From: Ignavibacteriae bacterium HGW-Ignavibacteriae-2
GTDB lineage: Bacteria > Bacteroidota > Ignavibacteria > Ignavibacteriales > Melioribacteraceae
DNA length: 62,966 bases
Direction of reading: 5' to 3'
NCBI GenBank assembly: GCA_002839805.1
Contig: PGYT01000009.1
Location: 1 to 62,966, forward strand
Numbering within the stretch: the stretch's first letter is position 1; every line of letters begins with the position of its first letter. Positions 3,708 through 60,187 of the stretch are shown one piece after another. The notes below the pieces were generated by a model, which saw nothing but the letters and a program-made list of their open reading frames with translations, had not been told where the DNA came from and ran no database searches. The translations under genes and the position numbers were made by a program.

Positions 3708-4029
3708 AAAAAATTATACTGGCAAGCTTCATTAAAAAAAATATTCGTAACCGTATTTCTTAAAATTATATATTAATAAATCTCCCCACCACAACATTTA
3801 ATAAATCAAAATACTAATTCAACTAATCCATAAAGATTTTGTCAAAAACAAAAAAATCCTGAAAATATTTTATATTATCAGCTCAATTCTAATTAATTAT
3901 TGAATAAGTCATATCCGGGAAAAGAATTACTTCATTCTATCAGTATTAATATCGATACAGAATTACATATAAGTCATAAAAATTTGAAAATAATTATGAA
4001 TATTTTCCACTATTTAGTGTAACACGGCT
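3708..4029. other. Gene-free interval
   Basis: AT-rich spacer between the MarR operon and the sigma-factor operon. I see no open frame with a ribosome-binding site and no strong terminator hairpin. It must hold the sigma-operon promoter, but I cannot assign -35 and -10 boxes with confidence. Confidence 0.5.
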
Positions 4030-7840: not shown

Positions 7841-7887
7841 TTCGAATACCCTTCTGTTTTTTGATTAAAATAATACTACGCAATTTT

Positions 7888-8346: not shown

Positions 8347-8443
8347 TTCTATCTTTCCTCCGTTAATGAATGTTCGTTCTTTGATGAAAAACAAATGATG
8401 GAATTATTGGATAAATTTAATACAAATGTAAGCGCGGGTGATT

Positions 8444-40220: not shown

Positions 40221-40745
40221 AATAATCTTCTCTTTTTGTATAAATATTACTCAAACAATAATTTTATCATCGAAATAAAGCAAAAGATCTTAATTTGCTT
40301 GATTAAGACTTAAGTCTGTTTAGTAACTTCAGCTTGGCATTTTACATAATAATTAATAACAATATTATTATCGTAGTCAATTATAATTTGATTAGCAAGA
40401 ATGTAGCAAACGAGACAATAATGATGTGAACGAGTTATGATCTAACAATTGAATATAATGCATTCAATTTAAAAATCAAGTTTTGGTTTCAGTATAAAAT
40501 ATTATTCAAATTCTTTAAAAGTTTAAAATCCTAATAAATTCCAGTTGTTTATACCTTAATAGATTAAATTGGTTTTATAATTAACTATCACCCTTATTTC
40601 AATTTTTCATTTCAAAATAAATAACATTTAAATCAATGTCTTTTTCTCATTACGATTAAAGGAACCTTAATTTACAACATGATGTTGATTATTAGTGTGC
40701 TTTAAAACACAAAATCAAATTTGGAATACATTAACAAGAAAATAT
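40221..40745. other. Gene-free interval between divergent genes
   Basis: This spacer holds the promoters of the pilin-like operon and of the SDR/flavin-reductase pair. It is AT-rich. I find no repeat or reading frame to report. Confidence 0.45.
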
Positions 40746-41448
40746 ATGAAAACATATCTGATCGTCGGAGGAACTTCCGGTATTGGTTTAGAAACTGTTA
40801 AAAAGTTAACTTCACTGAACAAACATGTTATAGTAATCGCCAGAGAAAAAAAGCGATTAATTGTTGGGGAGGGAGTAGAATATTTCTCGGCGGATGTAAC
40901 CGAATCTCCCGGAGTTCTGCCTGATATCAGCAGTCCTATTAACGGCATTGTATATTGCCCAGGTACAATAAACCTGAAACCTTTCAGAAGTTTAAAAACT
41001 GAGGATTTCCAAAATGATTTTGAAGTTAATTTGCTGGGGGCTGTTAAAGTAATAAACAAATATTTGTCAAATCTAAAATCAGCCGAAAAGGCAAGTATTG
41101 TTTTGTTCAGCACTGTTGCTGTTCAAACCGGTATGCAGTATCATGCGTCTATTGCTTCTGCGAAAGGGGCAGTTGAAGGATTAACCCGATCACTGGCTTG
41201 CCGAGTTGGCCCCAACAATCAGAGTAAATTGTATAGCACCTTCAATCACTAATACACCTCTTGCTGAAAAACTTTTAAATAACGAAGTGAAATTAAAAAC
41301 TTCGGAAGACCGCCATGTTTTAAGGAGAATTGGTGATGCGTCAGAAATTGCCGAACTTACAACTTTCTTATTATCAGAATCATCCGGATTTATAACAGGG
41401 CAAATCATTAAAGTTGACGGTGGAATATCATCTGTAAAAAATTTTTAG
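40746..41448 (+). pseudogene. Short-chain dehydrogenase broken by a single-base frameshift
   Basis: The first frame starts at ATG 40746 and reads MKTYLIVGGTSGIGLETVKK through SAKGAVEGLTRSLA. It then turns to nonsense. The next frame continues exactly with ELAPTIRVNCIAPSITNTPL to DGGISSVKNF at 41448. Removing one T around 41196 (GGCTTGCC to GGCTGCC) restores a normal SDR of about 234 residues. Either a real lesion or a sequencing or assembly error. A flavin reductase gene follows after 11 bases. Confidence 0.85.
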
Positions 41449-41459
41449 AGTGTAAAATT

Positions 41460-42089
41460 ATGGTTATCACAAAAGAAAAAATATTTAGTTTCGAGAAAAT
41501 ATACCGAACTAACTTAATAAATTCGATTTCGGGGTTCAAAAGCGCTTCGCTAATAGGGACTGTTGATTCTGACGGGAATAATAATCTTGCCATATTTAAT
41601 TCGGTTATACATGTCGGGGCAAACCCTCCATTGCTGGGATTTTTGATGCGTCCCGTCTCTGTTGAACGTCACACATACAATAACATCAAACAAATGAGAT
41701 ACTTCACTATAAATCATGTAAACGAAAATATTACAAAAAATGCTCATCAAACATCCGCCAGTTATGATAAGGAAAAATCAGAATTTTTAGAGTGCGGATT
41801 AACTCCCGAATTTTCGAAAAATATAATTGCCCCTTATGTAAAAGAATCAAATATAAAGATTGGATTAAAATTTATAGAAGAGCAGGAAATTAAATCCAAT
41901 GGAACAATTTTTATTATCGGCGAAATTATGGAGATAATAATTCCCGATATTGTTTTGGAGCAGGATGGTTACATTAATATTCAAAAAGCTGGTACAGTTG
42001 CAATTGGCGGACTGGATGGTTATTACAATACAAAAAAAATCGCTCGTTATTCCTACGCCAAACCGAGTGATGAGCTTAAAGAGCTCTAA
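41460..42089 (+). CDS. Flavin reductase family protein
   Basis: A 209-residue FMN-binding split-barrel protein. The segment SASLIGTVDSDGNNNLAIFN, then GANPPLLGFLMRPVSVERHT, followed by GTIFIIGEIMEI, are the strands that bind FMN in this family, which supplies reduced flavin or acts as an oxygen-tolerant reductase. It lies 11 bases after the broken SDR, so the two form one transcript, convergent with the CarH operon. Confidence 0.88.
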   Translation: MVITKEKIFSFEKIYRTNLINSISGFKSASLIGTVDSDGNNNLAIFNSVIHVGANPPLLGFLMRPVSVERHTYNNIKQMRYFTINHVNENITKNAHQTSASYDKEKSEFLECGLTPEFSKNIIAPYVKESNIKIGLKFIEEQEIKSNGTIFIIGEIMEIIIPDIVLEQDGYINIQKAGTVAIGGLDGYYNTKKIARYSYAKPSDELKEL

Positions 42090-42121: not shown

Positions 42122-42676
42122 TCAATAAAGTTTTATATACTCAATTTCTACTTTAAAGGACCCTTCCTGCTTGTCACCTAAAAGAAAAGATATTTCTTTA
42201 ATGTTATCCAGTGGAATGTTTGGATTTGAGTCTTTTTCATTGCCATAAGAATAAAGTGAAAAGTTTTCGAATGGAATTTTTATAGTTAGCCATTTATTTT
42301 TTTCTGTCCGGAAACTGGAGGTATAAAACAAACCCGTAAAATATGAGGTCTCTTTCATAGAAATACTGCATTTTTCACCATCTCCCTTTATACTTATCAC
42401 AAAACCTGAATAATTTTTCAGATTATAATTTTTAATAGGACTCCTCAAAGAAACAAATCCGCCGTTGTTTTTAAGTGATATTGTTCCACTGAATACAATA
42501 TTTTCGGCTTTGTTTAATTCAAATGCAGAATTGCTTAATCCACCCATAACCCCATCATTTACAATTCGCCATGCATCACTACTTTGCATTACAGCAGCAT
42601 TAAGCAATAATTTATCATCAGTTTGTGACCACAGATTTAACACCATAACATAAAATACGCTGAAGAATAAAATCAT
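42122..42676 (-). CDS. CIA30-family exported protein
   Basis: A 184-residue protein with a hydrophobic signal (VFYVMVLNLWSQ, about 1-18). The CIA30 jelly-roll follows: DAWRIVNDGVMGGLSNSAFE, SGTISLKNNGGFVSLRSP, YSGFVISIKGDGEKC, FSLYS. Bacterial members are poorly characterised; the mitochondrial one assists complex I assembly. It overlaps the upstream SDR gene by four bases (ATGA), and is last in the carH-headed operon. Confidence 0.85.
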   Translation of the reverse strand: MILFFSVFYVMVLNLWSQTDDKLLLNAAVMQSSDAWRIVNDGVMGGLSNSAFELNKAENIVFSGTISLKNNGGFVSLRSPIKNYNLKNYSGFVISIKGDGEKCSISMKETSYFTGLFYTSSFRTEKNKWLTIKIPFENFSLYSYGNEKDSNPNIPLDNIKEISFLLGDKQEGSFKVEIEYIKLY

Positions 42677-44130
42677 ACTTTATTCCTTTCATTATAATTA
42701 ATAATATTTTCAGCCATACCATTAAATATTAATTGATGAAAAGGTAAAACTGAATACCAGTAAATCCTTCCGAATAATCCGCGCGGACGAAAAGTTGCAG
42801 TCTGTATAAGAAAAGTTTTCCCATCTTTTTCGGATATAATAAACTCCAGCCAGGCTTCGCCGGGTAATTTCATTTCAGCATAAAGAAGCAGTCTTTTGTT
42901 AAGTTTGTCGGCAGCTAAAACTCTCCAGAAATCGAGAGTATCACCCGGATTGATCGAATTATAATTTGTTCTACCTCTTCGAAGTCCCACGCCTCCAAAA
43001 AGTTTATCAATAAATCCGCGTAAAACCCATAACCAATTTGCGTAATACCATCCACGTTCTCCACCTATAGACCATATGTTTTCCAGAACTGCGTTAACAT
43101 TATTAAAAATTTCTTTTTCACGTTTATCATAAAAACATCCATGAACCGGAACATGGAAAAATTTTTGCAGTGAGTTAGAACTGGAACTTGATACAAGAGA
43201 ATCTTTCCAACTCGAGATTACCGAATTATGCTCAATTTTCTCGAATGCCAGTCGAACGGCTTCTTTGTAAGAAATAAGTTTTATATTCAATATATTCATC
43301 AAATCATTATTTTTGGCTATTATCTCAATTTTCATACTGTTAACAAGGTTTACAGCGAGTTTGTAAGAAGTTGCCGTAACAAAATAAAGCCAATATGAGG
43401 ATAAGCGGGGCGTCATTACGGGTACGGCAATAATTATTCTTTTCAATCGGCGTACTTCCGCAAATTGCAATAACATTTCTTTATATGAAATAATATCCGG
43501 ACCGCCTATATCGAAAGATTTATTAAACGTTTTTTCATTCAATAATACTCCAGTCAAACATTCTACGACATTTCTTATAGCTATTGGCTGATGTTTTGTT
43601 TTCAGCCATTTTGGCGCTATCATTATAGGAAGTTTTTCTACAAGATCCCTTATAATTTCAAATGAAGCGCTTCCGGAACCGACAATAATTCCAGCTTTCA
43701 AAATTGTTGCCGGTGTTTTTCCGCTGATAAGAATATCCTCTACATTTTTTCGTGAAGCAAGGTGACGAGAAAGTTTTTTCTCGTTAGTAATTCCACTTAA
43801 ATAAATTATCTGTTTCACTTCTGTTGATTCAATCAGTCGAAGAAAATTTCGAGCGGAAGTTTCTTCTAAGCTTTCAAAGTCATCTATACCTGAACTCATT
43901 GAATGTATAAGATAATAAGCGGCGTCAATATCATTAAGTTCGTCGAAGTGATTTAGTTCGTTTAAAAAATCTATTTCTAATATGGAAATATTTTTGTGAT
44001 TAAAAATCCCATTTTCCGGCAATCGGGATTTGTCTCTTACACAACAAACAACATGATGTCCAAACTCGATAAGAATTGGTAGAATACGTTTGCCAATATA
44101 GCCGGTAGCTCCTGTTAATAGTATTTTCAT
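42673..44130 (-). CDS. NAD(P)-binding SDR-like protein with DUF2867 domain
   Basis: A 485-residue two-domain protein. The N-terminal NAD(P) domain has LLTGATGYIGKRILPILIEF and AAYYLIHSMSSGIDDFE (atypical extended SDR, YbjT-like). The C-terminal DUF2867 domain (about 330-485) has RGWYYANWLWVLRGFIDKLF and GGVGLRRGRT, with EAWLEFIISEKDG. Such fusions are found in light- or stress-responsive lipid clusters. It overlaps CIA30 by four bases. Fifth gene of the carH operon. Confidence 0.9.
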   Translation of the reverse strand: MKILLTGATGYIGKRILPILIEFGHHVVCCVRDKSRLPENGIFNHKNISILEIDFLNELNHFDELNDIDAAYYLIHSMSSGIDDFESLEETSARNFLRLIESTEVKQIIYLSGITNEKKLSRHLASRKNVEDILISGKTPATILKAGIIVGSGSASFEIIRDLVEKLPIMIAPKWLKTKHQPIAIRNVVECLTGVLLNEKTFNKSFDIGGPDIISYKEMLLQFAEVRRLKRIIIAVPVMTPRLSSYWLYFVTATSYKLAVNLVNSMKIEIIAKNNDLMNILNIKLISYKEAVRLAFEKIEHNSVISSWKDSLVSSSSSNSLQKFFHVPVHGCFYDKREKEIFNNVNAVLENIWSIGGERGWYYANWLWVLRGFIDKLFGGVGLRRGRTNYNSINPGDTLDFWRVLAADKLNKRLLLYAEMKLPGEAWLEFIISEKDGKTFLIQTATFRPRGLFGRIYWYSVLPFHQLIFNGMAENIINYNERNKV

Positions 44131-44159
44131 TTATGCCCGCCGATAAAATTTGTATTAAT

Positions 44160-44615
44160 TTATTTAAACCGTGTTTCAAGAAAATTTTTTCGAAACTCAA
44201 AAATATTATTCAGTTTTTTTTCTACGAATATTTTATTAGCTATTACACCAAATATTCCAAAAGGAATGGCATAATGAACAATATCCTGCACTTCAATTCC
44301 ATTCTCCACTTCATTAAATATATGCTGATGATGCCAAAATTTATAAGGGCCGAATCTTTGTTCATCAATAAAATAATTTTCATCTTTTGCTTGTGAGATT
44401 TCGGTCACCCAAGAAAGTTTTATAAAGGGGAGTATTTGTATTTTGTAGACTATTATCTGTCCGGGATAAATTTTACTTGATAACTCAGATTTAATTTCGA
44501 ATTTCATATCAGGAGGAGTAATCTTCTGTAAATTTGCGGGATTAGAAAAAAAATTCCAGCAATCTGATCGGTTAATAGGTAATATCTGTTTGTGACTTAA
44601 TTTATATATTTTCAT
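44160..44615 (-). CDS. SRPBCC-family protein
   Basis: A 151-residue START-like domain: LPINRSDCWNFFSNPANLQK, then ITPPDMKFEI, IKLSWVTEISQAKDENYFID, EQRFGPYKFWHHQHIF and the C-terminal helix NNIFEFRKNF. SRPBCC proteins bind hydrophobic ligands in a deep cavity; in this context it could bind a modified fatty acid or polyketide. It sits between DUF1295 (two-base gap) and SDR-DUF2867 (29-base gap). Confidence 0.88.
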   Translation of the reverse strand: MKIYKLSHKQILPINRSDCWNFFSNPANLQKITPPDMKFEIKSELSSKIYPGQIIVYKIQILPFIKLSWVTEISQAKDENYFIDEQRFGPYKFWHHQHIFNEVENGIEVQDIVHYAIPFGIFGVIANKIFVEKKLNNIFEFRKNFLETRFK

Positions 44616-44617
44616 GT

Positions 44618-45391
44618 TTAGCCTTTCTTTCCAATAAAGGGTAAAAATGCCGGAGTAACTTTTTTATAATTTTCCCATTGTTTGTTACCTGCATATTTTT
44701 TTTCAAGCATTGGAACGCCGGAAACATAAATGAGTAATAAATTTATTACTATAGGACCGATAAACGCTGTTAGGAACAGATCTGAACCTATAGCTACAAT
44801 ACCTATGCCCCACCATAAAACAGCTTCTCCGAAATAATTAGGGTGCCTTGTATATTTCCACAATCCTGAAGTTATTATTCTGCCCTTGCTCTCAGCTTTC
44901 TTTTTAAAATTATACATCTGATAATCTCCGATACTTTCAAATAGAAATCCAAAAACAAATATTATAAAGCCAATTAAGCTAAACGCATTTAATTGATCAC
45001 CTTCACTATTAAACACAACCATAATTGGGAAGGCAACTGCAATCATAATAATTCCCTGAAGCATAAAAACTTTAAAGAATGCTTTTACTGCAGCATTTTT
45101 ACCCCAATCTTTTCGCCACTGCGCATATCTAAAATCCTCGCCTTTGCCTCGCGCTCTTATATAAATATGGATTGCAAGTCGTAAACCCCAAATCAATATC
45201 ATAGTTGTAAGCAATAAATCTTTTATATCCGGCTGATTTGTTGTAAAAAGTAATACAAAAGAAATAAGAATAAAACCTATGCCCCAGCCGATATCCACAA
45301 TTGAATTGTCCTTTTTAATCTGAGCTGTTACAAACATGATTACCATAAAAATTAAAGCCGTTGCGGCAGATGTTGCAATTATCTGATACAT
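44618..45391 (-). CDS. DUF1295/steroid 5-alpha-reductase-like membrane protein
   Basis: A 257-residue protein with six to seven helices. The C-terminal motif ITSGLWKYTRHPNYFGEAVL WWG identifies the DUF1295 family, related to 5-alpha-reductases and isoprenylcysteine methyltransferases. DIGWGIGFI at about 34 is also typical. It probably reduces or methylates a lipid in the membrane. It lies nine bases after glutathione peroxidase and two before SRPBCC. Confidence 0.9.
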   Translation of the reverse strand: MYQIIATSAATALIFMVIMFVTAQIKKDNSIVDIGWGIGFILISFVLLFTTNQPDIKDLLLTTMILIWGLRLAIHIYIRARGKGEDFRYAQWRKDWGKNAAVKAFFKVFMLQGIIMIAVAFPIMVVFNSEGDQLNAFSLIGFIIFVFGFLFESIGDYQMYNFKKKAESKGRIITSGLWKYTRHPNYFGEAVLWWGIGIVAIGSDLFLTAFIGPIVINLLLIYVSGVPMLEKKYAGNKQWENYKKVTPAFLPFIGKKG

Positions 45392-45400
45392 ATTTATTCC

Positions 45401-45880
45401 TTATAAAATATTTTCAATATGGCTTTCCAGTTCTACTGGTTTGGTTGACGGGCTGAACCGATTTACAACATTTCCCCGTCGGTCAACTAAAAATTTCGTA
45501 AAATTCCATTTGATCTGTTTAAATATAAATCCAGGAGCTTTGCTTTTTAGATACTTAAATAGTGGATGAGTATTTTTGCCGTTAACTTCAATTTTTGAAA
45601 ACATAGGAAAAGTAACTCCATAATTGATAGTGCAGAATGATTTTATCTCCTCATTGTCTCCAGGATCTTGATTAGCGAAATCATTTGAAGGAAAACCGAG
45701 TATAGTAAAATTTTTACCTGAATACTTTTCATACAGTTTTTGAAGACCCTCAAATTGGGAAGTAAATCCGCATTTGCTGGCCGTATTAACAATTAGCAGT
45801 ACCTTGTTCTTGTATTCCGAAAATTTTATATCGGTTCCATCTATACGTTTAACGTTATAGTCATAAATATTTTTTTTCAT
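45401..45880 (-). CDS. Glutathione peroxidase-family thiol peroxidase
   Basis: A 159-residue Cys-type GPx. The catalytic triad is seen as C37 in TASKCGFTSQFEGL, the Gln in SNDFANQDPG and the Trp in KWNFTKFLVD. A second Cys in KSFCTINYG fits thioredoxin-dependent two-Cys action. It reduces lipid or hydrogen peroxides. It overlaps the carH end by 20 bases, so it is co-expressed with the photoreceptor, in keeping with protection against photo-oxidative damage. Confidence 0.92.
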   Translation of the reverse strand: MKKNIYDYNVKRIDGTDIKFSEYKNKVLLIVNTASKCGFTSQFEGLQKLYEKYSGKNFTILGFPSNDFANQDPGDNEEIKSFCTINYGVTFPMFSKIEVNGKNTHPLFKYLKSKAPGFIFKQIKWNFTKFLVDRRGNVVNRFSPSTKPVELESHIENIL

Positions 45881-46847
45881 AATTCTCTCTTTTATCTATT
45901 CTAATCTGATTTCTAATTGATTTTAACGTATCTCTAAAATGTTTTGGAGTTTTTACTATATGAGCGTTAATATTCGTTAAAATATCTTTGTAGCCTGTAA
46001 CCGCGTTTCCACCGGCGATTATAACAACATCGTCATGGATTGATTTGCTTAATTCCAATAATTGCGCTTCCATTCTTGGATTATCATTTGGATAAATAAT
46101 ACTTAAAAAAATGCAATGTGAATTTGTTTGATTAACAGCAGTCGCAATATCTTCAGCCGATAGACTAACTCCCAGGTAAGTTGATTTCCACCCTTCTGAA
46201 GCAGCGAGTGAATCACCAATTATAGCTCCGAAATCATGATGTTGACCATCGGGAGAAGTGATTACAATTTTCGGTGCTTTATTTTTGATTTCAAATTCCG
46301 ATGAAATTTTTAAAACAAATTTTACAATTACAGCACTCGTAAAATGTTCGTGAGCTATTCTCAGTAATCCACTTTTCCATTGGTAACCTATTTTAACCAT
46401 CACTGGAAATAATACGTTTTCAACAAATTCCAGGAAGTTGCTTTTTTTGTAAGCTCTGTGTAAAATCAGCAACAATTTTTTTTCATTAAAATTTTTAATC
46501 GCCTCAAGCGAGTCGTTTATTGTTTTATCCACTGAAGCAATATCATATAGTTGTAAATATTTTTCGTCAGTGCTTATAATCTCCGAATCAACTCTATTTA
46601 ATAGACCTTTCAAATCATTTATTGACAAGCTTGAAAGATTGCTAATTTGTATTCCACGCTCGGTTAGTTTTCGTAAAAGTTTAAGTTTATTTATATCATA
46701 TTCCGAATACAGCCTTCTGTTAGATTCAGAGCGAAAAGGAATTATTATTGAATATCTTCTTTCCCACGCTCTTAAAGTATATTCTGAAACTCCTGAAAGT
46801 TTTGCTGCTTTTTTTATACCGTAATTTTTCACCAACAACCCCGTCAC
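45861..46847 (-). CDS. carH: CarH/LitR-type B12-dependent MerR photoreceptor regulator
   Basis: A 328-residue regulator. Residues 9-75 are a MerR helix-turn-helix (KKAAKLSGVSEYTLRAWERR). The cobalamin region has W157-x9-E167-H168 (QWKSGLLRIAHEH), the motif of the four-helix cap in CarH, and the axial His204 in DGQHHDFG, where CarH has ERHEIG (Glu replaced by Gln). The Rossmann part follows to about 310. CarH tetramers bound to adenosylcobalamin repress in the dark and fall apart in light. The start is GTG at 46847, but a GTG at 46832 with GGGG six bases before it may be the true one. Confidence 0.92.
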   Translation of the reverse strand: MTGLLVKNYGIKKAAKLSGVSEYTLRAWERRYSIIIPFRSESNRRLYSEYDINKLKLLRKLTERGIQISNLSSLSINDLKGLLNRVDSEIISTDEKYLQLYDIASVDKTINDSLEAIKNFNEKKLLLILHRAYKKSNFLEFVENVLFPVMVKIGYQWKSGLLRIAHEHFTSAVIVKFVLKISSEFEIKNKAPKIVITSPDGQHHDFGAIIGDSLAASEGWKSTYLGVSLSAEDIATAVNQTNSHCIFLSIIYPNDNPRMEAQLLELSKSIHDDVVIIAGGNAVTGYKDILTNINAHIVKTPKHFRDTLKSIRNQIRIDKRENYEKKYL

Positions 46848-46854
46848 TGAAACT

Positions 46855-46876
46855 ATACAAAAATTATGCGTTGTAT
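46855..46876. promoter_or_regulatory. Inverted repeat ATACAA-N10-TTGTAT next to carH start
   Basis: Arms 46855-46860 and 46871-46876 are perfect inverted repeats of the same ATACAA core as the tandem repeats at 46970. It begins eight bases before the carH GTG, where binding would block carH itself. Autoregulation is inferred. Confidence 0.5.
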
Positions 46877-46969
46877 CTTGAATAACGTGAAAAAGAATGC
46901 GGAAGTTCCTTTAATTGATATTTTGTGGAAGATCTTGCAGAATTTATGTTAAAATGGAACTAAAGTATC

Positions 46970-46991
46970 TATACAAACGTTGTACAAACAT
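46970..46991. promoter_or_regulatory. Tandem 11-bp repeats, candidate CarH operator
   Basis: TATACAAACGT (46970-46980) is followed directly by TGTACAAACAT (46981-46991), nine of eleven bases the same. The T(A/G)TACA core and an 11-bp step match what is described for CarH/LitR operators. The element lies 56 bases before the desaturase TTG in the divergent promoter region. Confidence 0.65.
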
Positions 46992-47046
46992 AGAGCTTAA
47001 AAATCATGTAATTCGATTTAAGAATAAGATTCAGTAAGGTGAGAAG

Positions 47047-47787
47047 TTGATAATAGTCACGTTTTTCTTCATACATTGGTTTGGATCATTGTTTTTCCAA
47101 ACATTTTTTCTTCACAGATATGGCGCGCATGGAATGTTCAAAATGAACAAATTTTGGGAAAAAATATTTTATGTGCTGACTTATATATTTCAAGGGTCGT
47201 CATTTCTTAACCCACGTGCTTATGCTATAATGCACAGAATGCACCATGCGTTCAGCGACACTGAACGTGATCCACATTCACCAAAATATTTCAAAAGCGT
47301 ATTCGGACTCATGTGGAAGACAAAAGATATTTATTTGGATTTAATCAATAATAAAATAAAACCGGGTGAAAATTTTTCAAGGAATATTCCAAATTGGGAG
47401 AAGTTTGAAAATTTTGGAAACGGCTGGCTGCATAGAATTATCTGGGGCATTTCGTATGTTGCTTTTTACCTTGTGTTCGCGACACACTGGTGGATGTTTT
47501 TACTGTTACCAATTCATTTTTTGATGGGACCAATACATGGAGCTATTGTTAACTGGGTTGGTCATAAATACGGTTATAAAAATTTTAAAGACACAAATGA
47601 TAATTCCCAAAATGCTTTGTTTGTGGATTTTTTAACACTTGGCGAATTATTTCAGAACAATCATCATAAATATCCGAGCCGCGCAAATTTCGCTGTAAGA
47701 TTTTTTGAATTTGATCCGACTTATCCGATCATAAAATTCCTGAGTTGGCTGGGTATTATACATTTAACGTCTAATAAAAACTTTTAA
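47047..47787 (+). CDS. Fatty acid desaturase
   Basis: A 246-residue membrane desaturase. Histidine boxes are present: HRYGAH near residue 23, HRMHH near 63, HKYG near 179 and NNHHK near 207. This is the acyl-CoA or acyl-lipid delta-9-like class with a di-iron centre. The start is TTG at 47047, after AAGGTGAG; a stop codon at 47035 prevents an earlier start. First gene of an eight-gene operon with gaps of ten bases or fewer, opposite carH. Confidence 0.9.
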   Translation: MIIVTFFFIHWFGSLFFQTFFLHRYGAHGMFKMNKFWEKIFYVLTYIFQGSSFLNPRAYAIMHRMHHAFSDTERDPHSPKYFKSVFGLMWKTKDIYLDLINNKIKPGENFSRNIPNWEKFENFGNGWLHRIIWGISYVAFYLVFATHWWMFLLLPIHFLMGPIHGAIVNWVGHKYGYKNFKDTNDNSQNALFVDFLTLGELFQNNHHKYPSRANFAVRFFEFDPTYPIIKFLSWLGIIHLTSNKNF

Positions 47788-47797
47788 TGAGGGCAAA

Positions 47798-48133
47798 GTG
47801 AAAAATTTTTTGGTGGCAGTTTTTGCAATTTTATTTCTTTACATAGTTTATACTATTATATCCACTAGTCTGGAGTCAAACCTCTTTACAGAATGGGATT
47901 TCCTGGCTTCAATTCCTTGGATGAAAGCAACACTTGTAGATTTTTATGTAAACACTGTTGTAATATTTGTATGGATGGCTTTTAGGGAAAAGGGCTGGCC
48001 AATAAGGATTTTATGGCTTGTTTTATTCGTTTTCCTCGGAAGTATAGCCACAACATTTTATGTGCTGGTTCAATTGCTAAAACTTAAAAAAGACGAACCG
48101 GTTATTAACGCATTTTTATTGAAAAAGGTATAA
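47798..48133 (+). CDS. DUF1475-like membrane protein
   Basis: A 111-residue protein with three membrane helices, starting at GTG 47798. The segment SIPWMKATLVDFYVNTVVIF, then AFREKGWPIRILWLVLF and LGSIATTFYVLVQL resembles DUF1475, a family best known from plants, to my memory. Function unknown. It lies ten bases after the desaturase and seven before the methyltransferase. Confidence 0.75.
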   Translation: MKNFLVAVFAILFLYIVYTIISTSLESNLFTEWDFLASIPWMKATLVDFYVNTVVIFVWMAFREKGWPIRILWLVLFVFLGSIATTFYVLVQLLKLKKDEPVINAFLLKKV

Positions 48134-48140
48134 GTCTTAT

Positions 48141-49178
48141 ATGAAATTTGATAATCTGTTAACTAGAAATTTATTACCTGATTTCCTAATCAGGTTTGGT
48201 ATTAAAAATCTTCTTAAAGCACGTTTAAGAAATGAGAAAAAATCTAGCGTTGAGGAGCAAAGGAAAAGTTTTATGGAACTTGTCGCTCAATTAAAAGAGA
48301 GCAAAATTGCCGTAAATACACCTGATGCAAATGAACAACATTATGAGGTGCCTACGGAATTTTTTAAGCTTGTTTTGGGCACGAATTTAAAGTACAGCAG
48401 CGGTTACTGGGATAAAGGTATTAAAAGTTTAGACGATGCAGAAAAAAAAATGCTCCAAATAACCTGTGAAAGGGCCGGTGTACGAAACAATGAAGATATT
48501 CTTGAGCTCGGCTGCGGCTGGGGATCTTTAACTTTATTTATGGCGCAAAAATATCCTGATTCTAAAATAACAGCGGTCTCAAATTCCAAAACTCAAAAGG
48601 AATATATAGATTATGAAGCCGCCAGAAGAGGATTTAAAAACATATTGGTTGTTACAGCGGATATTAATGACTTTCAAACTGAGAAAAATTTCGATCGAAT
48701 AGTTTCAGTAGAAATGTTCGAACATATGAGAAATTATACCGCTCTCTTCGAAAAAATATTCAATTTGTTGAAGCCCGAAGGGGAATTATTTGTACACATC
48801 TTTGCTCATAATAAATATGCATATCTATTTGAAATAATAGACGATACCGATTGGATGGCAAAATACTTTTTTACAGGAGGTATAATGCCAAGTGATCATC
48901 TGCTTTTCTACTTTTCCGACGATTTCCAGACAAAAAACCATTGGATTGTAAATGGGACACATTATCAAAAAACAGCTAATGCATGGCTTTCTAACATGGA
49001 TGCCAATAAGGATAAAATTTTACAATTATTTGCAAAGACGTATGGCGAAGAAAATAAAATCAAATGGTGGGTTTACTGGAGAGTGTTTTTTATGAGTTGT
49101 GCCGAACTTTGGGGATTTAAAAATGGAGATGAGTGGTTCGTTAGTCACTATTTATTTAAGAAGAGGAAACAATGCTAA
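48141..49178 (+). CDS. CFA-synthase-like SAM methyltransferase (paralog 1)
   Basis: A 345-residue class I methyltransferase. The SAM-binding motif is ILELGCGWGSLTLFMA (about 115-130), preceded by NEQHYEVPTEFF and YSSGYWDKG, where cyclopropane synthases have YSCAYW; the Cys is Ser here. The acidic motif VEMFEHM and the His in LFVHIF are kept. It is thus likely to methylate a lipid double bond, as CFA synthases do, or another acceptor, since plant N-methyltransferases share this branch. It overlaps the next gene by seven bases. Confidence 0.88.
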   Translation: MKFDNLLTRNLLPDFLIRFGIKNLLKARLRNEKKSSVEEQRKSFMELVAQLKESKIAVNTPDANEQHYEVPTEFFKLVLGTNLKYSSGYWDKGIKSLDDAEKKMLQITCERAGVRNNEDILELGCGWGSLTLFMAQKYPDSKITAVSNSKTQKEYIDYEAARRGFKNILVVTADINDFQTEKNFDRIVSVEMFEHMRNYTALFEKIFNLLKPEGELFVHIFAHNKYAYLFEIIDDTDWMAKYFFTGGIMPSDHLLFYFSDDFQTKNHWIVNGTHYQKTANAWLSNMDANKDKILQLFAKTYGEENKIKWWVYWRVFFMSCAELWGFKNGDEWFVSHYLFKKRKQC

Positions 49179-49888
49179 ATATTTTACTTATTGCAGTTGC
49201 TCTTATTGGGATAGGCAACTCCGGTAATTTAGTTAAAACTTATTCGGGTAAAGCCTTAAAGCAAAGTGACGACAAATTTCTATATAGAGAAATTCACGAA
49301 GCAAAGTTTAATGGGGAAAAAATTGATGAAATAATAACTCAGTTTAAAGATCCTAATAATAATCTTATTGCCATAAGAACTATGATATTCGGTGAAGATC
49401 TTACAAAACCCCAATTTGTTCTTAAAGATTTCAGATCAGGATATGTTGAAGGGTCTGAATTGTTGCCGAGCAATAAAGTTCGTGTTTATACAAAAGAAAA
49501 TTTTGGGGATAATCTTGATGAAAAAATACTGGAAGTTGAAGAACCATTCGTAATTGATGGGGGTATTACATATTTCTTTAAAGAGCATTGGGAAGACCTC
49601 CTTAAAAACAAGACTATCCAATTTAATTTTGTAACACCATCTAAACTGGATTACTTCAGATTTAGAGTATACAAAAAAGCTATAGTACAGATAGACGGGA
49701 GAAAAGGCCTTCAACTAGTTTTGGAATTGGATAATTTCATTATGAGAGCTTTCGTCGATCCAATTATAATTACGTATGATTTGGAAAATAAAGAGATTTT
49801 GTATTATAAGGGTATATCTAATATTAACGATGAGAACGGAAAAAGTCTGTCAATTAAAATTGATTATTCAGCTAAAGGTAACATATAA
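49172..49888 (+). CDS. Exported protein of unknown function
   Basis: A 238-residue protein with a short hydrophobic N-terminus (NILLIAVALIGIGNSG). Alternating polar beta strands follow (KLDYFRFRVYKKAIVQIDGR, GLQLVLELDN, VDPIIITYDLENKEILYYKG), suggesting a beta-sandwich or half-barrel lipid carrier. It overlaps the methyltransferase by seven bases and the flavoenzyme by one. I do not recognise its family. Its position suggests a periplasmic role in handling the modified lipid. Confidence 0.65.
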   Translation: MLNILLIAVALIGIGNSGNLVKTYSGKALKQSDDKFLYREIHEAKFNGEKIDEIITQFKDPNNNLIAIRTMIFGEDLTKPQFVLKDFRSGYVEGSELLPSNKVRVYTKENFGDNLDEKILEVEEPFVIDGGITYFFKEHWEDLLKNKTIQFNFVTPSKLDYFRFRVYKKAIVQIDGRKGLQLVLELDNFIMRAFVDPIIITYDLENKEILYYKGISNINDENGKSLSIKIDYSAKGNI

Positions 49889-51150
49889 TGGAAAAGTTAG
49901 CTATAATCGGAACCGGAATTGCCGGTATGGGAGCCGCGTATTTTTTAAACAAGAAATATGACATTACACTTTATGAAAAAAATAATTATGTGGGCGGACA
50001 TACAAACACTGTTAATATAAAAGAGGATAATAAAGATATTTTTGTTGATACGGGGTTTATGGTTTTTAATAAAGTTACTTACCCTAATCTTACAAAGTTA
50101 TTTGAGAAATTAAATGTGGACATAAAACCAACCGCAATGTCTTTCAGTGTTAATCATATTGAGAGCGGTCTTGAATACTCAGGATCAGGATTAAATGGAT
50201 TATTTGCGCAGAGGAAAAATATATTTAATCTGCGGTTTATTAGAATGCTTTATCAAATCAACAGATTTAATTCCGAAGCTCTCGAAACTTTATCTAATCA
50301 AAAATATTCTGAATACAGTCTGGCAGAATATGTGGACGAAAAAAAATTCGGGAATGATTTTCTGTACAGATATCTTATCCCAATGAGTTCGGCTGTGTGG
50401 TCCTCACCGCCTGATTTAATGCTCAAATTTCCAGCAAAAACTCTTGTAAGGTTTTTTCATAATCATGGTTTTCTTGGTTTGGATACGCAACATCAGTGGT
50501 ATACCGTTGTGAACGGAAGCCAAAGTTATCGGAATAAAATTATAGAGCAATTTAAAAACAAAATCCATGTTAATAATGCTGTGCAGAGAGTAATCCGAGA
50601 GAATGGGAAAATTAAGATTACTTCTAAAAATGATACTCATGAATCTTTCGATAAAGTTATTTTTGCGTCGCATGCCGACGAAACCTTAAAGATGCTTGAT
50701 AATCCGACAGAAATAGAAACACAAATTTTACATTCATTTAAATACCAATTCAATAAAGCGACTTTGCACACCGATTACAGGATAATGCCCAAAAACAAAA
50801 AAGTATGGTCTTCCTGGAATTATAGAATTGAACCTAAGAATGGGGACATAAAAACTTCGACGATTTATTATATGAACAGTCTTCAGCAGGTATCGGATAA
50901 ACAGGACTATTTCTTATCAATAAACGATCCGGCCAGTATTGATCCTTCAAAAATTATTATGGAAATAGATTACGAGCACCCAGTCTTTGATCTTAATTCT
51001 ATAAAAGCGCAGAAAGATATTGATAAAATCAATATGCAGCAGAACAACACCTTTTTTTGCGGAAGTTATTTTAAATATGGTTTTCATGAGGATGCTTTTA
51101 CAAGCGCTCTTGAACTCAGCAAAAAATTATTGGGCGACTTTTCATGGTAG
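49888..51150 (+). CDS. FAD-dependent amine-oxidase-like oxidoreductase
   Basis: A 420-residue flavoenzyme. The FAD motif LAIIGTGIAGMGAAYFLNK begins at residue 4, followed by YEKNNYVGGHTNTV and DTGFMVFN. The central SSAVWSSPPDLMLKFPAK and C-terminal CGSYFKYGFHEDAFTSALEL match the NAD(P)/FAD-dependent group found beside DUF1365 and CFA synthase in many bacteria. Some relatives take part in furan fatty acid synthesis. It overlaps the next gene by seven bases. Confidence 0.9.
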   Translation: MEKLAIIGTGIAGMGAAYFLNKKYDITLYEKNNYVGGHTNTVNIKEDNKDIFVDTGFMVFNKVTYPNLTKLFEKLNVDIKPTAMSFSVNHIESGLEYSGSGLNGLFAQRKNIFNLRFIRMLYQINRFNSEALETLSNQKYSEYSLAEYVDEKKFGNDFLYRYLIPMSSAVWSSPPDLMLKFPAKTLVRFFHNHGFLGLDTQHQWYTVVNGSQSYRNKIIEQFKNKIHVNNAVQRVIRENGKIKITSKNDTHESFDKVIFASHADETLKMLDNPTEIETQILHSFKYQFNKATLHTDYRIMPKNKKVWSSWNYRIEPKNGDIKTSTIYYMNSLQQVSDKQDYFLSINDPASIDPSKIIMEIDYEHPVFDLNSIKAQKDIDKINMQQNNTFFCGSYFKYGFHEDAFTSALELSKKLLGDFSW

Positions 51151-51926
51151 GGAATTCATGTTTATATGAATGTACGGTTTCGCATGTACGAAAGAAGCCT
51201 GTAGTGAACAAATTTCACTACAAATATTTCATGTTCTATTTGGAGATTGATGAACTTGATAACTTATCTAAAAAATTAATGTTATTCAGCCGTAACCGGT
51301 TAAACGTTTTTAATTTCAGGGATAAAGATCATATTGTTTTTGATACACCGAATGTTAAACAAAACATATTAACATACCTGTCAACTAATGGTTTTTCTGA
51401 GGATATTGGAAAAATTTTTCTGCTTACAAATGTATCAACATTGGGTTATAATTTTAATCCTGTCTCTTTCTATTTCTGTTTCGATAAAAACAATAATCCA
51501 GTTTGTGTGGTCCCGGAAGTAGGAAATACTTTTGATGAATTGAAACCCTTCTTCATCGATTATAACAATTATCTAAACGGAGAATTTCGATCGAGAGTGC
51601 AAAAAAATTTTTACGTATCACCTTTTATTCAACATGATGTTTTTTTCGATTTTCGGATATCGATACCAGACGGAAAGCTCAATATTAAAATTGATGATTA
51701 TAAGGAAGACAGTAGGATTTTTACCACCCATTTATCGGGGACACGTAAAAGTTTAACTGATTGGAATCTATTTAAATATGGATTCAAATATCCGCTGGTT
51801 ACATTAAAGGTAATTAGCGCGATACATTGGCAAGCATTTAAACTGATTTGGAAGAAGATGCCTTACTTCAAAAAAAATGAATTTGAAGAGTTACAAAAAG
51901 GAGCTATTGCGAAATGGAAAAAGTAG
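51144..51926 (+). CDS. DUF1365 family protein
   Basis: A 260-residue protein of the family's usual length: LYECTVSHVRKKPVVNKFHY, YFMFYLEIDEL, LTNVSTLGYNFNPVSFYFCF and VVPEVGNTFDE are the diagnostic stretches. Function unknown, but it is almost always next to the amine-oxidase-like flavoenzyme and a CFA-type methyltransferase, as here. The start overlaps the previous stop by seven bases; the stop overlaps the next start by 13. Confidence 0.92.
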   Translation: MVGNSCLYECTVSHVRKKPVVNKFHYKYFMFYLEIDELDNLSKKLMLFSRNRLNVFNFRDKDHIVFDTPNVKQNILTYLSTNGFSEDIGKIFLLTNVSTLGYNFNPVSFYFCFDKNNNPVCVVPEVGNTFDELKPFFIDYNNYLNGEFRSRVQKNFYVSPFIQHDVFFDFRISIPDGKLNIKIDDYKEDSRIFTTHLSGTRKSLTDWNLFKYGFKYPLVTLKVISAIHWQAFKLIWKKMPYFKKNEFEELQKGAIAKWKK

Positions 51927-53179
51927 TTTTAACTAACGATATAACAGCGGAAAAAAAAGTTGCCAGAACTTATAGTTTTTATAAATCCATTGTTATGAGA
52001 ATTTTATCAAAGATGAATAAAGGGCTACTTAATTTAACTTTTCCTAATGATGAAGTTGGTACGTTTGGCGGGAAAGATAAAACAATTGTAGCTAATATTA
52101 AAATCAACAACTCACGGTTCTTTAAACGAATTGTACTATACGGAGATATTGGATTTGGAGAGTCCTATGTTGATGGAGACTGGGAAACGGATAACATTGC
52201 CAATGTAATATCGTGGATGATTCTTAATGTCGAAAACAATCCGGCCATTTCGGGAACGAGCAATAAATATTCTCCGATAAGTTTATTAAAAGCAATAAAT
52301 CGTTTGTATCACAGATTTAATGTAAATACAAAAAATGGAAGCAAAAAAAATATTTCGGAACATTATGACCTTAACAACGAATTTTTTAAACTTTGGCTTG
52401 ATAAAAGCATGACATATTCTTCGGCGATATTCGAAGATAATTCTTACTCCCTGTATGACGCTCAGATGGCCAAATATGATAGGCTGTGCAGAAAATTAAA
52501 AATAAAATCTACAGACAATGTTTTGGAAATTGGAACAGGCTGGGGAGGGTTTGCAGTATTTGCCGCTCAAAATTATGGTTGTAAAATTACAACAATTACT
52601 ATTTCAAATGAGCAGTACAATTATTCAAAAAATTTGATTGTCGAAAAGAATCTTGATAAACTGGTTTCAGTACAATTAAAAGACTATAGGGAAATTTCAG
52701 GACAGTATGATAAAATAGTATCCATAGAAATGCTGGAAGCTGTTGGAGATGAATATCTGCCGATTTATTTTTCGAAAATACATGAATTACTCAAGTCTGA
52801 CGGTGCCTTAGGCCTGCAGGTAATAACGTCTCACGATTCAAATTATAAGCAACTTAAAAATGGAGTTGATTGGATTCAAAAACATATATTTCCCGGATCA
52901 TTACTGCCTTCAATTGGAGCATTAAATTCTGCTGTCAATAAAACTAGTAATTTGCATCTGCACGATTTAAAGAATATTGGCTTAGACTATGCCAGAACTT
53001 TAAGGGAGTGGCGTAATGGGTTTAACTCCAAATTAAACGATGTTTTTAGGCTGAACCTAAATGATTCATTTGTCCGGAAATGGAATTATTATTTGAGTTA
53101 TTGTGAATCCGCATTTTTTATGAGGAATATTAGCGTGGCGCAAATTGTTTATACACGACCCAATAACAGGAATTTATAA
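51914..53179 (+). CDS. CFA-synthase-like SAM methyltransferase (paralog 2)
   Basis: A 421-residue full-length cyclopropane fatty acid synthase homolog. The N-terminal domain (about 1-120) contains GESYVDGDWETDNI. The catalytic part has SEHYDLNNEFFKLWLDK, MTYSSAIF, EIGTGWGGFAVFAAQ and VSIEMLEAV. Compared with the bicarbonate-binding residues I recall for E. coli CFA synthase, the Cys is Ser, the Glu is kept and the His is Gln (LQVITS). It probably methylates a phospholipid acyl chain, with a product that may not be cyclopropane. The DUF2062 gene starts one base after it. Confidence 0.9.
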   Translation: MEKVVLTNDITAEKKVARTYSFYKSIVMRILSKMNKGLLNLTFPNDEVGTFGGKDKTIVANIKINNSRFFKRIVLYGDIGFGESYVDGDWETDNIANVISWMILNVENNPAISGTSNKYSPISLLKAINRLYHRFNVNTKNGSKKNISEHYDLNNEFFKLWLDKSMTYSSAIFEDNSYSLYDAQMAKYDRLCRKLKIKSTDNVLEIGTGWGGFAVFAAQNYGCKITTITISNEQYNYSKNLIVEKNLDKLVSVQLKDYREISGQYDKIVSIEMLEAVGDEYLPIYFSKIHELLKSDGALGLQVITSHDSNYKQLKNGVDWIQKHIFPGSLLPSIGALNSAVNKTSNLHLHDLKNIGLDYARTLREWRNGFNSKLNDVFRLNLNDSFVRKWNYYLSYCESAFFMRNISVAQIVYTRPNNRNL

Positions 53180-53180
53180 A

Positions 53181-53654
53181 ATGTTGTTTGTTGAAAAAGT
53201 AAAAAGAGTTTTTAACAGTAAATATGTTTCAGCGATTAAAAAATTATTGCTAAATGGAACTTCACCAAAACTAATAGCTATAGGAATATCGGGTGCAATT
53301 GTAATAGGACTGTTTCCCGTTTTGGGATCAACGACAATTTTATGCACTGTTTTTGCTCTAGTCTTCAGGTTGAACCTGCCATTGGTTCAATTGATAAATT
53401 TTTCGGTATATCCACTTCAATTTATTTTATTAGTTCCTCTAATGAAACTTGGTGAATTAATATTTGGTATTGAAAAATTGAAGTATGGTTTAAATGAGAT
53501 GGTCGATTTAATAAGTAACGATGCTCTGCGGGCAATTGCCATTTTATGGAATGTAACAATGCAGGCAATAGGAGCCTGGCTTCTTTTGGCACCTGTTATT
53601 GCTTTGTTATTCTTTTTTATTTTACATCCGATTATAAAGAGAATTAGAATATAA
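53181..53654 (+). CDS. DUF2062 membrane protein
   Basis: A 157-residue protein with two to three helices: LIAIGISGAIVIGLFPVLGS, then LPLVQLINFSVYPLQFILLV and PLMKLGEL are the DUF2062 core, and a C-terminal helix follows (ALLFFFILHPII). The frame extends to a TTG at 53145, but the ATG at 53181, one base after the upstream stop, is the likely start. Last gene of the plus-strand operon. Confidence 0.88.
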   Translation: MLFVEKVKRVFNSKYVSAIKKLLLNGTSPKLIAIGISGAIVIGLFPVLGSTTILCTVFALVFRLNLPLVQLINFSVYPLQFILLVPLMKLGELIFGIEKLKYGLNEMVDLISNDALRAIAILWNVTMQAIGAWLLLAPVIALLFFFILHPIIKRIRI

Positions 53655-58618: not shown

Positions 58619-60187
58619 ATGAAAGAAAAAGTTTATGACTATATAATTATAGGAAGCGGATTCGGCGGATCTGTTTCGGCCTTAAGACTTTCTGAAAAGG
58701 GCTATAAAGTTTTAGTTATAGAAAAGGGCAAATGGTTTAAATCTGATGATTTCCCAAAGTCAAACTGGAATATAAAAAAATGGTTATGGATTCCAGCTCT
58801 TAAGTTTTATGGGTTTTTTAAAATTACTTTTTATAAACATATTGGAATATTATCAGGCGTAGGAGTTGGGGGCGGATCACTTGTTTATGCCAATACATTA
58901 CCTGTTCCCGGTAAAAAATATTTTGAAGCGGAAAGCTGGGCACACCTAGCCGATTGGAAAACTGAACTAGCTCCATTTTACGAAACCGCAAAAAAAATGT
59001 TGGGTGTTTCAAAAAATCCGCGCGAAGAATACGGCGATAAAGTTTTAAAAGAAGTTGCGAAACAAATTGGCAAGGAGGATCACTACGAACTTACAGATGT
59101 AGCGATATATTTTGGAGAACCAAACATTACCATGCCCGATCCGTACTTTGGCGGAGAAGGCCCTGAACGCTCCGGTTGTAATTTTTGCGGCGGATGTATG
59201 GTTGGCTGCCGATATAATGCTAAAAACACACTCGACAAAAATTATCTTCATTTAGCACTTAAAAATGGCGCAGAAATTAAAGCGGAGGCAGAAGTTATTG
59301 ATGTAAACTTTAATGAAGCCGGAGACGAAAAAATATATAATGTAACCTGGCAAAGTTCTACGAAACTATTTAAAAAACGAGGAACAATAGCTTGCAAAGG
59401 AGTTATCTTTGCAGGAGGAGTTCTTGGCACTGTTCCATTACTGTTAAAATTAAAACAGACGTCATTGCCAAATTTATCCGATCAACTCGGTTGTGCGGTG
59501 CGAACTAATTCTGAAAGTTTGCTTGGAGTTACTGCTCCACAAAACATAAATGATTTTTCTAAAGGGATTGCCATCAGCTCTATTGTTCATACAGATGAAT
59601 TCAGTCATATTGAGCCAGTGCGTTACTCATCAGGTTCCGGTTTCTGGAGATTACAAGTATTTCCCCTTGTCTCTGGTAAGAATCTGATAGTAAGAATTAT
59701 TAAATCCTTCACTCAATTTATTTTGCACCCTGTTAAAACAAGTCGTTTGTTTTTTGTAGCGGACTGGGCAAAAAAAACCCAAATACTTCTATTTATGCAA
59801 ACTATTAACAGTACACTTAAATTTGAGAAAGGCTGGTTTCGAATGAGATCGAAATTGGAAAAAGGTAAAGCGCCGAGCGCATTTATTCCTGAAGCGCGTA
59901 ATTTGGCGAAACGTTTTGCGGATATTGTTAATGGAACACCGGGCGCTTTGCTATCAGAAACAATTTTAGGAATACCTACAACTGCACATATACTTGGTGG
60001 CTGTGTTATGGGCAAAGACATTAAAGAAGGAGTCGTGGACAAAGATAATAAAATCTTCGGATACGAAAACATATATGTATGTGATGGATCAATGATTTCG
60101 GCAAATCCCGGTGTAAATCCATCGCTCACAATTACGGCCTTAGCCGAAAGGGCAATGCATAAAATACCCCGAAAGGATCAAATGTAG
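58619..60187 (+). CDS. GMC oxidoreductase (cholesterol oxidase-like)
   Basis: A 522-residue FAD enzyme. FAD motif YIIIGSGFGGSVSALRL begins at residue 8, and SGVGVGGGSLVYANTL follows. A cluster CNFCGGCMVGC (about 187-197) is typical of this GMC branch. The C-terminal HILGGCVMG and NPGVNPSLTITALAE hold the catalytic His and Asn. It oxidises an alcohol, perhaps a sterol or lipid-like compound. It stands alone and is divergent from the lipoprotein/kinase operon. Confidence 0.9.
   Translation: MKEKVYDYIIIGSGFGGSVSALRLSEKGYKVLVIEKGKWFKSDDFPKSNWNIKKWLWIPALKFYGFFKITFYKHIGILSGVGVGGGSLVYANTLPVPGKKYFEAESWAHLADWKTELAPFYETAKKMLGVSKNPREEYGDKVLKEVAKQIGKEDHYELTDVAIYFGEPNITMPDPYFGGEGPERSGCNFCGGCMVGCRYNAKNTLDKNYLHLALKNGAEIKAEAEVIDVNFNEAGDEKIYNVTWQSSTKLFKKRGTIACKGVIFAGGVLGTVPLLLKLKQTSLPNLSDQLGCAVRTNSESLLGVTAPQNINDFSKGIAISSIVHTDEFSHIEPVRYSSGSGFWRLQVFPLVSGKNLIVRIIKSFTQFILHPVKTSRLFFVADWAKKTQILLFMQTINSTLKFEKGWFRMRSKLEKGKAPSAFIPEARNLAKRFADIVNGTPGALLSETILGIPTTAHILGGCVMGKDIKEGVVDKDNKIFGYENIYVCDGSMISANPGVNPSLTITALAERAMHKIPRKDQM

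Follow-up and report, generated by a model that had tools for sequence, protein, structure and literature searches.

Between positions 42122 and 53654 of the window, by which we mean the whole 62,966-nucleotide stretch of contig PGYT01000009.1 from Ignavibacteriae bacterium HGW-Ignavibacteriae-2, the list of open reading frames (ORFs) holds 14 ORFs, tightly packed into two divergent operons. A sequence-only reading of this DNA had described such operons on either side of a MerR-type regulator with CarH motifs. The packing and the ORFs stand, but the regulator gene, carH, is the first gene of the minus-strand operon and not a separate unit. The minus operon runs carH, glutathione-peroxidase family, DUF1295, SRPBCC, SDR-DUF2867 and CIA30; the plus operon runs desaturase, DUF1475, methyltransferase A, barrel protein, UfaD-like, UfaO-like, methyltransferase B (UfaM-like) and DUF2062. 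From the gene content, motifs, conserved repeats and co-occurrence observed, we think it probable that the locus is a light-controlled furan fatty acid regulon gated by CarH, in which lipid genes driven by an extracytoplasmic function (ECF) sigma factor would be repressed in the dark.

The plus-strand operon and its predicted product

The plus operon consists of the following genes.

47044-47787, plus strand: membrane fatty acid desaturase (PF00487, E 2e-16; His boxes HRYGAH, HRMHH and QNNHH)
47798-48133, plus strand: DUF1475-like small protein (PF07343, E 8e-16)
48141-49178, plus strand: methyltransferase A, S-adenosylmethionine-dependent, of a branch like coclaurine N-methyltransferase (NMT), predicted FufM equivalent (PF02353)
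49172-49888, plus strand: LolA/EipB(DUF1849)-like beta barrel, probably exported and a putative carrier of acyl lipids (structural model)
49888-51150, plus strand: UfaD-like FAD oxidoreductase (PF01593, E 5e-21; role by family, PMC7380195)
51144-51926, plus strand: UfaO-like DUF1365 protein (PF07103, E 7e-72)
51914-53179, plus strand: methyltransferase B, UfaM-like, of the cyclopropane fatty acid (CFA) synthase family (PF02353, E 7e-82)
53181-53654, plus strand: DUF2062 protein (PF09835, E 1e-10; ORF open from 53145)

In PMC7380195, UfaM is the vaccenate methylase, UfaD an FAD desaturase, UfaO the DUF1365 protein of O2-dependent ring formation, and FufM the enzyme of a second methylation. In R. 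palustris these are RPA2569 (ufaM), RPA2571 (ufaD), RPA2570 (ufaO) and RPA0924 (FufM), and the order UfaD-UfaO-UfaM is the same in the window, where the UfaO-like protein is the sole match of its family in the genome. By family and gene order, the core of this operon matches the pathway to furan fatty acids. The sequence-only reading had called the product unknown; with this core it can be named, and we predict a dimethylated furan acyl phospholipid.

The two methyltransferases, both described earlier as CFA-like, differ. Methyltransferase B is indeed CFA/UfaM-like: its best solved match is a CFA synthase (E 5e-55), and its score of 285 bits lies under the cut-off of the Cfa equivalog (400). 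Methyltransferase A matches the CMAS family, yet is closest to coclaurine/pavine N-methyltransferases, with 6gkv as best solved match (E 6e-83; best CFA synthase, E 2.5e-27). Arabidopsis AT4G33110 is, we assume, coclaurine-NMT-like as well. FufM is 37.9% identical to AT4G33110 (PMC10940516) and 26% identical to UfaM (PMC7380195). Because methyltransferase A is coclaurine-NMT-like and 30% identical to the window UfaM over 201 amino acids, we place it, by this likeness, in the FufM branch as the predicted second methylase.

The gene at 49172-49888 had been left unnamed. Its protein had no Pfam match; at E values up to 1 five families appeared, each in one of 10 homologues (best 0.0098), and four Protein Data Bank sequences matched, the best at 0.13. 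The structural model (mean predicted local distance difference test score, pLDDT, 89.2) resembles the DUF1849/EipB structure 6ntr with Z 12.9 and a root mean square deviation of 4.0 over 195 residues, with RseB and LolA lower down. Since an axonemal chain reaches a similar score (Z 12.6), we claim the fold type alone. In the desaturase, the first His of the third box is replaced by Gln in 27 of 32 sequences.

Distribution of the operon and its pairing with carH

Of 395 genomes taken from the phylum, 13 (own genome included) have some match to UfaO, and in 10 the UfaO-like protein is full-length; among 58 relatives the corresponding figures are 5 (own included) and 4. A scan of named genomes gave 57 loci, mostly in Mucilaginibacter, Pedobacter and other Bacteroidota, of which the nearest (72%) is from an Ignavibacteriae metagenome-assembled genome (L048). 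For comparison we assembled 63 further loci (L042-L104), two of which, L045 and L079, share a contig and some of which are cut by contig ends. UfaD, UfaO and UfaM stand in order on one strand in 55 of the 63, and 53 of those 55 also carry methyltransferase A; further labels are DUF1295 (41 loci), an esterase-type gene (34), DUF1475 (33), desaturase (25) and the barrel protein (5).

These counts bear on whether the product might be another modified acyl lipid, such as a cyclopropane, 10-methyl or methylated diene, rather than a furan. The assignment of UfaO function goes back to two alphaproteobacterial proteins (PMC7380195), and the window UfaO shares 24-37% identity with the listed proteins from proteobacterial plasmids. 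The published gene order is nevertheless conserved in most of the comparison set, nearly always together with a FufM-branch methylase, and the window UfaM falls under the Cfa equivalog cut-off; we consider a non-furan product unlikely.

Genomes of the same order that were found through UfaO have carH adjacent to and divergent from the lipid operon in five of five cases (the window, G417 at L041, G011 at L028, G043 at L029 and G015 at L030). Searching with CarH added two more CarH-furan loci (G512 at L137 and G429 at L138), whose contigs end inside the lipid operon. The sequence-only reading had known of no such complete set under CarH in the FCB group; six further loci of the order pair CarH with the lipid operon. 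The search for the same gene order that it had suggested finds the identical 14-gene set, with the same order and ends, in G417. Because of this conservation, and because UfaD-UfaO-UfaM recurs in 55 of the 63 further loci, we do not regard the set as a chance arrangement. In a tree of concatenated UfaD, UfaO and UfaM from 62 loci, the window, L041, L048, L028, L029 and L030 group together.

None of the 63 further loci, which are mostly from Bacteroidota, carries a CarH label; L048 is cut inside the operon and was therefore not judged. A blastp comparison of 26 CarHs with L042-L104 returned two weak matches (42 and 36 bits), neither of them CarH: by sequence, one is a 1252-residue MetH-like protein and the other a sigma-factor-like protein. 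ECF sigma factors were considered as candidates upstream of the Bacteroidota operons, but about a dozen genes scanned there proved to be AhpC/TSA, cupin-like, TetR, HxlR and others, and phmmer labels placed ECF genes only at a distance and with low scores. An extra gene bears the label "MFSx" in 34 of the 63 loci; the single copy scanned is a BD-FAE esterase. In L065 (Mucilaginibacter), an AhpC/TSA-family gene (3942-4481) precedes the desaturase and a BD-FAE-type esterase gene (7560-8681) precedes UfaD. Near the G417 cluster lies a gene (L182, 8311-8784) whose product, judged by eye from the sequence, is TspO-like.

UfaO matches 99 records and methyltransferase A 317. From these, three proteobacterial plasmid loci were viewed: those of Acinetobacter (L135, which also has a desaturase) and Cupriavidus (L134) carry related sets beside photolyase and lipocalin genes, and that of Shinella (L136) carries one beside RpoE-ChrR.

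The regulator and the divergent promoters

The regulator gene and the DNA between the operons hold these features.

45861-46847, minus strand: CarH-type MerR-B12 regulator (MerR_1, PF13411; B12-binding_2, PF02607; B12-binding, PF02310)
46850-46877: operator-like site on the carH side, a complete 11-bp repeat with TATACA followed by a degenerate stretch ending TGTATC
46884-46909, minus strand: ECF-type promoter-like element GGAACTT-N15-CGTT, toward carH
46956-46981, plus strand: ECF-type promoter-like element GGAACT-N17-GTT, toward the desaturase, interleaved with the operator
46966-46987, plus strand: two 11-bp direct repeats, TATCTATACAA ACGTTGTACAA, CarH operator-like (TnnACA twice; pattern search)

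A GTG at 46832, within the ORF, is likelier to be the carH start than the start of the ORF. The protein contains MerR, four-helix and Rossmann B12 domains and aligns over both parts to the Thermus CarH structures 3whp and 5c8d. Against the NCBIfam CarH equivalog NF052513 it scores 81 bits (E 7e-23), far under the 400-bit cut-off, and for that reason we call it CarH-type. Searching with the regulator gave 32 matches in 29 of 164 genomes of the order, of which 26 sequences were aligned. The CarH residue motifs are listed in PMC11796333. The Wx9EH motif is kept in all 26 (W157 to H168 in the window), and RxWERRY is kept in the window protein. In the B12 motif D/ExHx2G/P-x41-SxT/V-x22-27-GG, the window protein retains the axial His (residue 204), Gly, the x41 spacing, Ser and GG, and departs in having Gln for D/E and Ile for T/V. 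The Wx9EH and axial-His motifs named in the sequence-only reading are thus both present, and we infer that the protein binds B12. Genes of the cobalamin adenosyltransferase family were found in the same genome. So was a second CarH-type protein (L006, 10917-11858; G000:C144:31425-32360), 42% identical, with Wx9EH and near SDR-like genes; its upstream region showed no 11-bp repeat pair.

CarH binds tandem 11-bp repeats with TnnACA (PMC8156234, PMC9304148). The pattern TRKACA-N5-TRKACA occurs at 12 sites in the seven ufa-linked intergenic regions (1,997 bases), with at least one site in each, against a dinucleotide-shuffle mean of 0.007, and 7 of 17 other CarH regions carry it, with seven sites in total (shuffle mean 0.017). 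The promoter-like pattern GGAAC-N17/18-GTT, in which we read GGAACT as the -35 element of an ECF promoter, occurs at 10 sites in the same seven of seven regions (shuffle mean 0.05) and at seven sites in 7 of 17 other CarH regions (0.11). Both patterns were drawn up after the regions had been viewed, so these shuffle figures are flattering, and the CarH-less ufa operons provide a cleaner test: neither pattern occurs in any of 60 upstream regions (25,857 bases; three of the 63 loci were dropped for short upstream DNA, and the first operon gene was taken from the labels). CarH-type control, as first suggested, is backed by the regulator motifs and by operator-like repeats that are conserved at the divergent promoters and missing upstream of the CarH-less operons.

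At the window's lipid-side promoter the two motifs are interleaved in a composite, GGAACT-N8-TATACA-N3-GTT. The composite pattern was drawn from the window, G429 and G011 furan loci, and over seven genomes it has four exact matches: these three and C39:3249-3274 in the window's genome, a site not used in building the pattern. The C39 site lies just upstream of an ECF sigma gene, and the genome has two exact sites in all. With up to one mismatch, the composite is found at the furan locus in six of the seven genomes, with four strays besides C39; in the seventh, G015, its spacing is one base shorter. The C39 ECF protein is 46% identical to the ECF protein of G015, and that encoded on C60, the closest in the window's genome, is 51% identical.

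An ECF sigma factor might also drive the lipid operon by itself in response to singlet oxygen or peroxide, with CarH controlling only itself and its own operon. ECF-like elements do stand at both divergent starts, and in G015 an ECF gene heads the lipid operon. A CarH repeat unit, however, lies inside the lipid-side promoter element, and the conservation of the composite at six of seven furan loci, with the shorter spacing in G015, also speaks against it; we find this explanation highly doubtful.

Other site patterns were less informative. The Pseudomonas-type site TRTACA-N12-TGTAYA, with up to two mismatches, occurs 12 times in the window against 10.3 expected, which is no enrichment; the single site of interest is at 46854, with one mismatch. 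With up to one mismatch, TRTACAA-N4-TRTACAA gave 16 matches in the genome and its reversed control gave 15, which offers no sign of a wider regulon. Its sole exact match in the genome is the one in the window, and a one-mismatch match at C39:3110, noticed afterwards, precedes an ECF gene.

Proposed control and accompanying genes

We propose the following course of events. In the dark, CarH bound to adenosylcobalamin (AdoCbl) would sit on the 11-bp direct repeats and block both divergent promoters as well as the C39 sigma gene. Green or blue light would photolyse the cofactor, and CarH would leave the DNA. The promoters would be targets of an ECF sigma factor, which we infer to be the C39 one, and because the C39 ECF gene carries the same promoter-operator composite, CarH would gate both the sigma gene and its target. 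After release the sigma factor would be made and the furan pathway and its helpers expressed. The plus-operon enzymes would then act on membrane phospholipid chains: the desaturase would give a monoene, UfaM would add a methyl group, UfaD would desaturate, UfaO would insert O2-derived oxygen and close the furan ring, and the FufM-like enzyme would add a second methyl. The barrel protein may handle the lipid, and the minus operon would supply a peroxidase and helper proteins. Furan lipids scavenge singlet oxygen, and the product would do so here.

Several findings weigh against this proposal. Gln replaces the Asp/Glu of the B12 motif in all seven ufa-linked CarHs, and the G043 protein has HELE for HxxG, with Glu in place of Gly. 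The residue after the motif Trp corresponds to His132 of Thermus CarH, the upper ligand in the light state, and Thermus CarH H132A stays mostly tetrameric in light, although an earlier report disagrees (PMC10442372). In our alignment this His is missing from all seven ufa-linked proteins, which have K (window), E (L041), E (L137), M (L138), R (L028), N (L029) and S (L030). PF00875 photolyase was not found in the window's genome, which is 99.9% complete (the search did not extend to the PF04244 type). Of the window's promoters, one shows two clear repeats and the other a single one, and the best-studied operators have three or four. Over the seven genomes the composite with up to one mismatch gives 11 matches against seven in the reversed control, and the C60 ECF gene, the nearest to that of G015, lacks a composite match. 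The UfaM, UfaD and UfaO proteins are 24-40% identical to those of the three proteobacterial plasmid loci viewed.

The missing light-state ligand and PF00875 photolyase, and the use of O2 in furan formation by UfaO (PMC7380195), would also fit a CarH that senses cobalamin supply or oxygen/redox rather than light, with derepression when O2 arrives or AdoCbl runs out. Yet all 26 aligned CarHs keep Wx9EH, the motif that contacts the Ado group, and photolyase-like, lipocalin or carotenoid genes stand beside CarH in some relatives. The His after the motif Trp is present in many, not all, CarHs (PMC9304148), and for that reason we do not take it as defining them. We consider such sensing quite unlikely, and light control by CarH remains our preferred reading. 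In our alignment five of the 26 CarHs have this His (L139, L140, L141, L142 and L145); the furan core was seen in none of these five within the stretch fetched, and L139 is near likely carotenoid genes.

A tentative extension, possible but less than probable, is a two-key switch: CarH and the ECF sigma factor would share the interleaved promoter-operator at the divergent promoters and the sigma gene, which would require light and a second stress signal at the same time, and CarHs lacking the upper His would use a release chemistry other than that of Thermus CarH.

Parts of the gene set had been said to recur in light and singlet-oxygen regulons, which holds: the core regulon of Rhodobacter sphaeroides RpoE-ChrR includes ufaM, ufaD and ufaO (PMC7380195, PMC5507510, PMC6852236). 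The window shares with RpoE-ChrR and R. palustris the UfaD-UfaO-UfaM core, the R. palustris gene order, a second methylase and a link to singlet oxygen or light; it differs from RpoE-ChrR in its CarH-type B12 regulator, in an ECF-like promoter of other sequence, and in having the FufM-like gene and a desaturase in the same operon. No ChrR anti-sigma factor is among the 14 window genes (the genome was not searched for one). On the Acinetobacter plasmid, too, a single cluster contains a desaturase and a second methylase; the 24 features shown there include no annotated MerR gene. The class II LitR regulon of Pseudomonas PplR/PmlR comprises phrB, an SDR gene, an FAD oxidoreductase gene and ufaM (PMC9758184), and resembles the window in a LitR/CarH-family repressor over a ufaM-containing operon in light and in TGTACA-type sites. 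Class II LitR, however, has no second B12 domain, and a LOV protein brings about its release, whereas the window regulator has the C-terminal B12 domain PF02310 and so falls outside that class; no LOV/PAS match was found among the 14 window proteins, the genome not being searched for LOV. The sites also differ, TRTACA-N12-TGTAYA in Pseudomonas against mainly 11-bp direct repeats here.

With Thermus, Bacillus and Myxococcus CarH (PMC8156234, PMC9304148) the window regulator shares Wx9EH, the axial His, RxWERRY and 11-bp TnnACA direct repeats over the promoter. Those CarHs, as described there, act on carotenoid genes with main-sigma promoters; here the targets would be furan-lipid genes with promoters of ECF-like sequence, and the residue after the Trp is not His. 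Streptomyces LitR-LitS (PMC12705666) likewise joins a B12 LitR and an ECF sigma gene in one light circuit, but that circuit acts on carotenoid synthesis, and LitR there reportedly promotes the transcription of litS in light. The blue-light response of V. cholerae, mediated by a MerR-like protein and ChrR, includes induction of a CFA gene (PMC5241685). A limited literature search, with most subscription papers outside its scope, gave no paper joining a B12-binding CarH to a furan operon. As far as found, then, furan-lipid genes were already known under RpoE-ChrR and B12-independent LitR, and their predicted control by a CarH-type B12 regulator would be new.

If correct, the proposal would take B12-based light sensing beyond carotenoids, to the furan lipids of the membrane, and would place the furan enzymes, a likely substrate desaturase and a second methylase in one compact operon that could be moved to E. 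coli. The ufa-linked proteins form a natural set of CarHs that lack the His credited with driving disassembly in light, so that this mechanism can be tested directly. The conserved composite allows the regulon to be sought by sequence.

The remaining genes of the minus operon are as follows.

45401-45880, minus strand: glutathione-peroxidase family protein (PF00255, E 4e-42)
44618-45391, minus strand: DUF1295 membrane protein (PF06966, E 7e-71; in all seven ufa-linked CarH loci)
44160-44615, minus strand: SRPBCC (START/Bet v1-like) protein (homologues and model)
42673-44130, minus strand: SDR (NAD-binding) fused to DUF2867 (PF11066, E 4e-34, and PF13460; G417 copy 80% identical)
42122-42676, minus strand: CIA30 domain protein, encoded at the end of the CarH operon (PF08547, E 3e-41; same place in G417)

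The families assigned in the sequence-only reading are otherwise right; besides the methyltransferase pair and the unnamed barrel gene, the "thiol peroxidase" needs correction, its PF00255 match placing it in the glutathione-peroxidase family and not in Tpx. It reads GFPSNDF where the G417 homologue has GFPCNQF. The SRPBCC assignment is upheld: the protein itself has no Pfam match, but 8 of 12 aligned homologues match PF03364, and SRPBCC-type folds rank top in the fold comparison of its model (pLDDT 92.9).

Several minus-operon genes also accompany CarH where the furan operon was not seen. Among 18 further CarH loci of the order (L139-L156), covered over at most 19.9 kb and often truncated at contig ends, seven have a labelled ECF gene (directly beside CarH in four), five a photolyase-like gene, six SRPBCC, four DUF2867, three glutathione peroxidase and two CIA30. 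These loci are not all independent, L154 and L156 being from one genus and L147, L148, L150 and L151 from another. Six of them (L144, L150, L151, L153, L155 and, SDR apart, L149) show none of the listed families besides CarH. L139 has a phytoene synthase and two amine-oxidase-type genes, likely carotenoid genes. In G015, which does have the furan operon, the CarH operon ends with DNA photolyase and lipocalin genes, and the lipid operon starts with the ECF sigma gene. We dropped an argument from the absence of carotenoid genes, as the window's genome has three SQS_PSY genes. GTP cyclohydrolase I adjoins CarH in L154 (Pfam), and in L156 a gene of equal length occupies the corresponding position; the Pseudomonas LitR regulon likewise contains folE.

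An SDR and a flavin reductase gene at 40743-42089 were considered as members of the set and ruled out, since the pair is not beside the 14 genes in G417. The SDR gene (40743-41448) is broken by an apparent frameshift near 41206, with two overlapping ORFs covering its N- and C-terminal parts; the flavin reductase gene (41460-42089) follows it and is not next to the cluster in G417. Farther along the window, 58619-60187 encodes a GMC oxidoreductase that scores 609 bits against a cholesterol oxidase model with a cut-off of 850.

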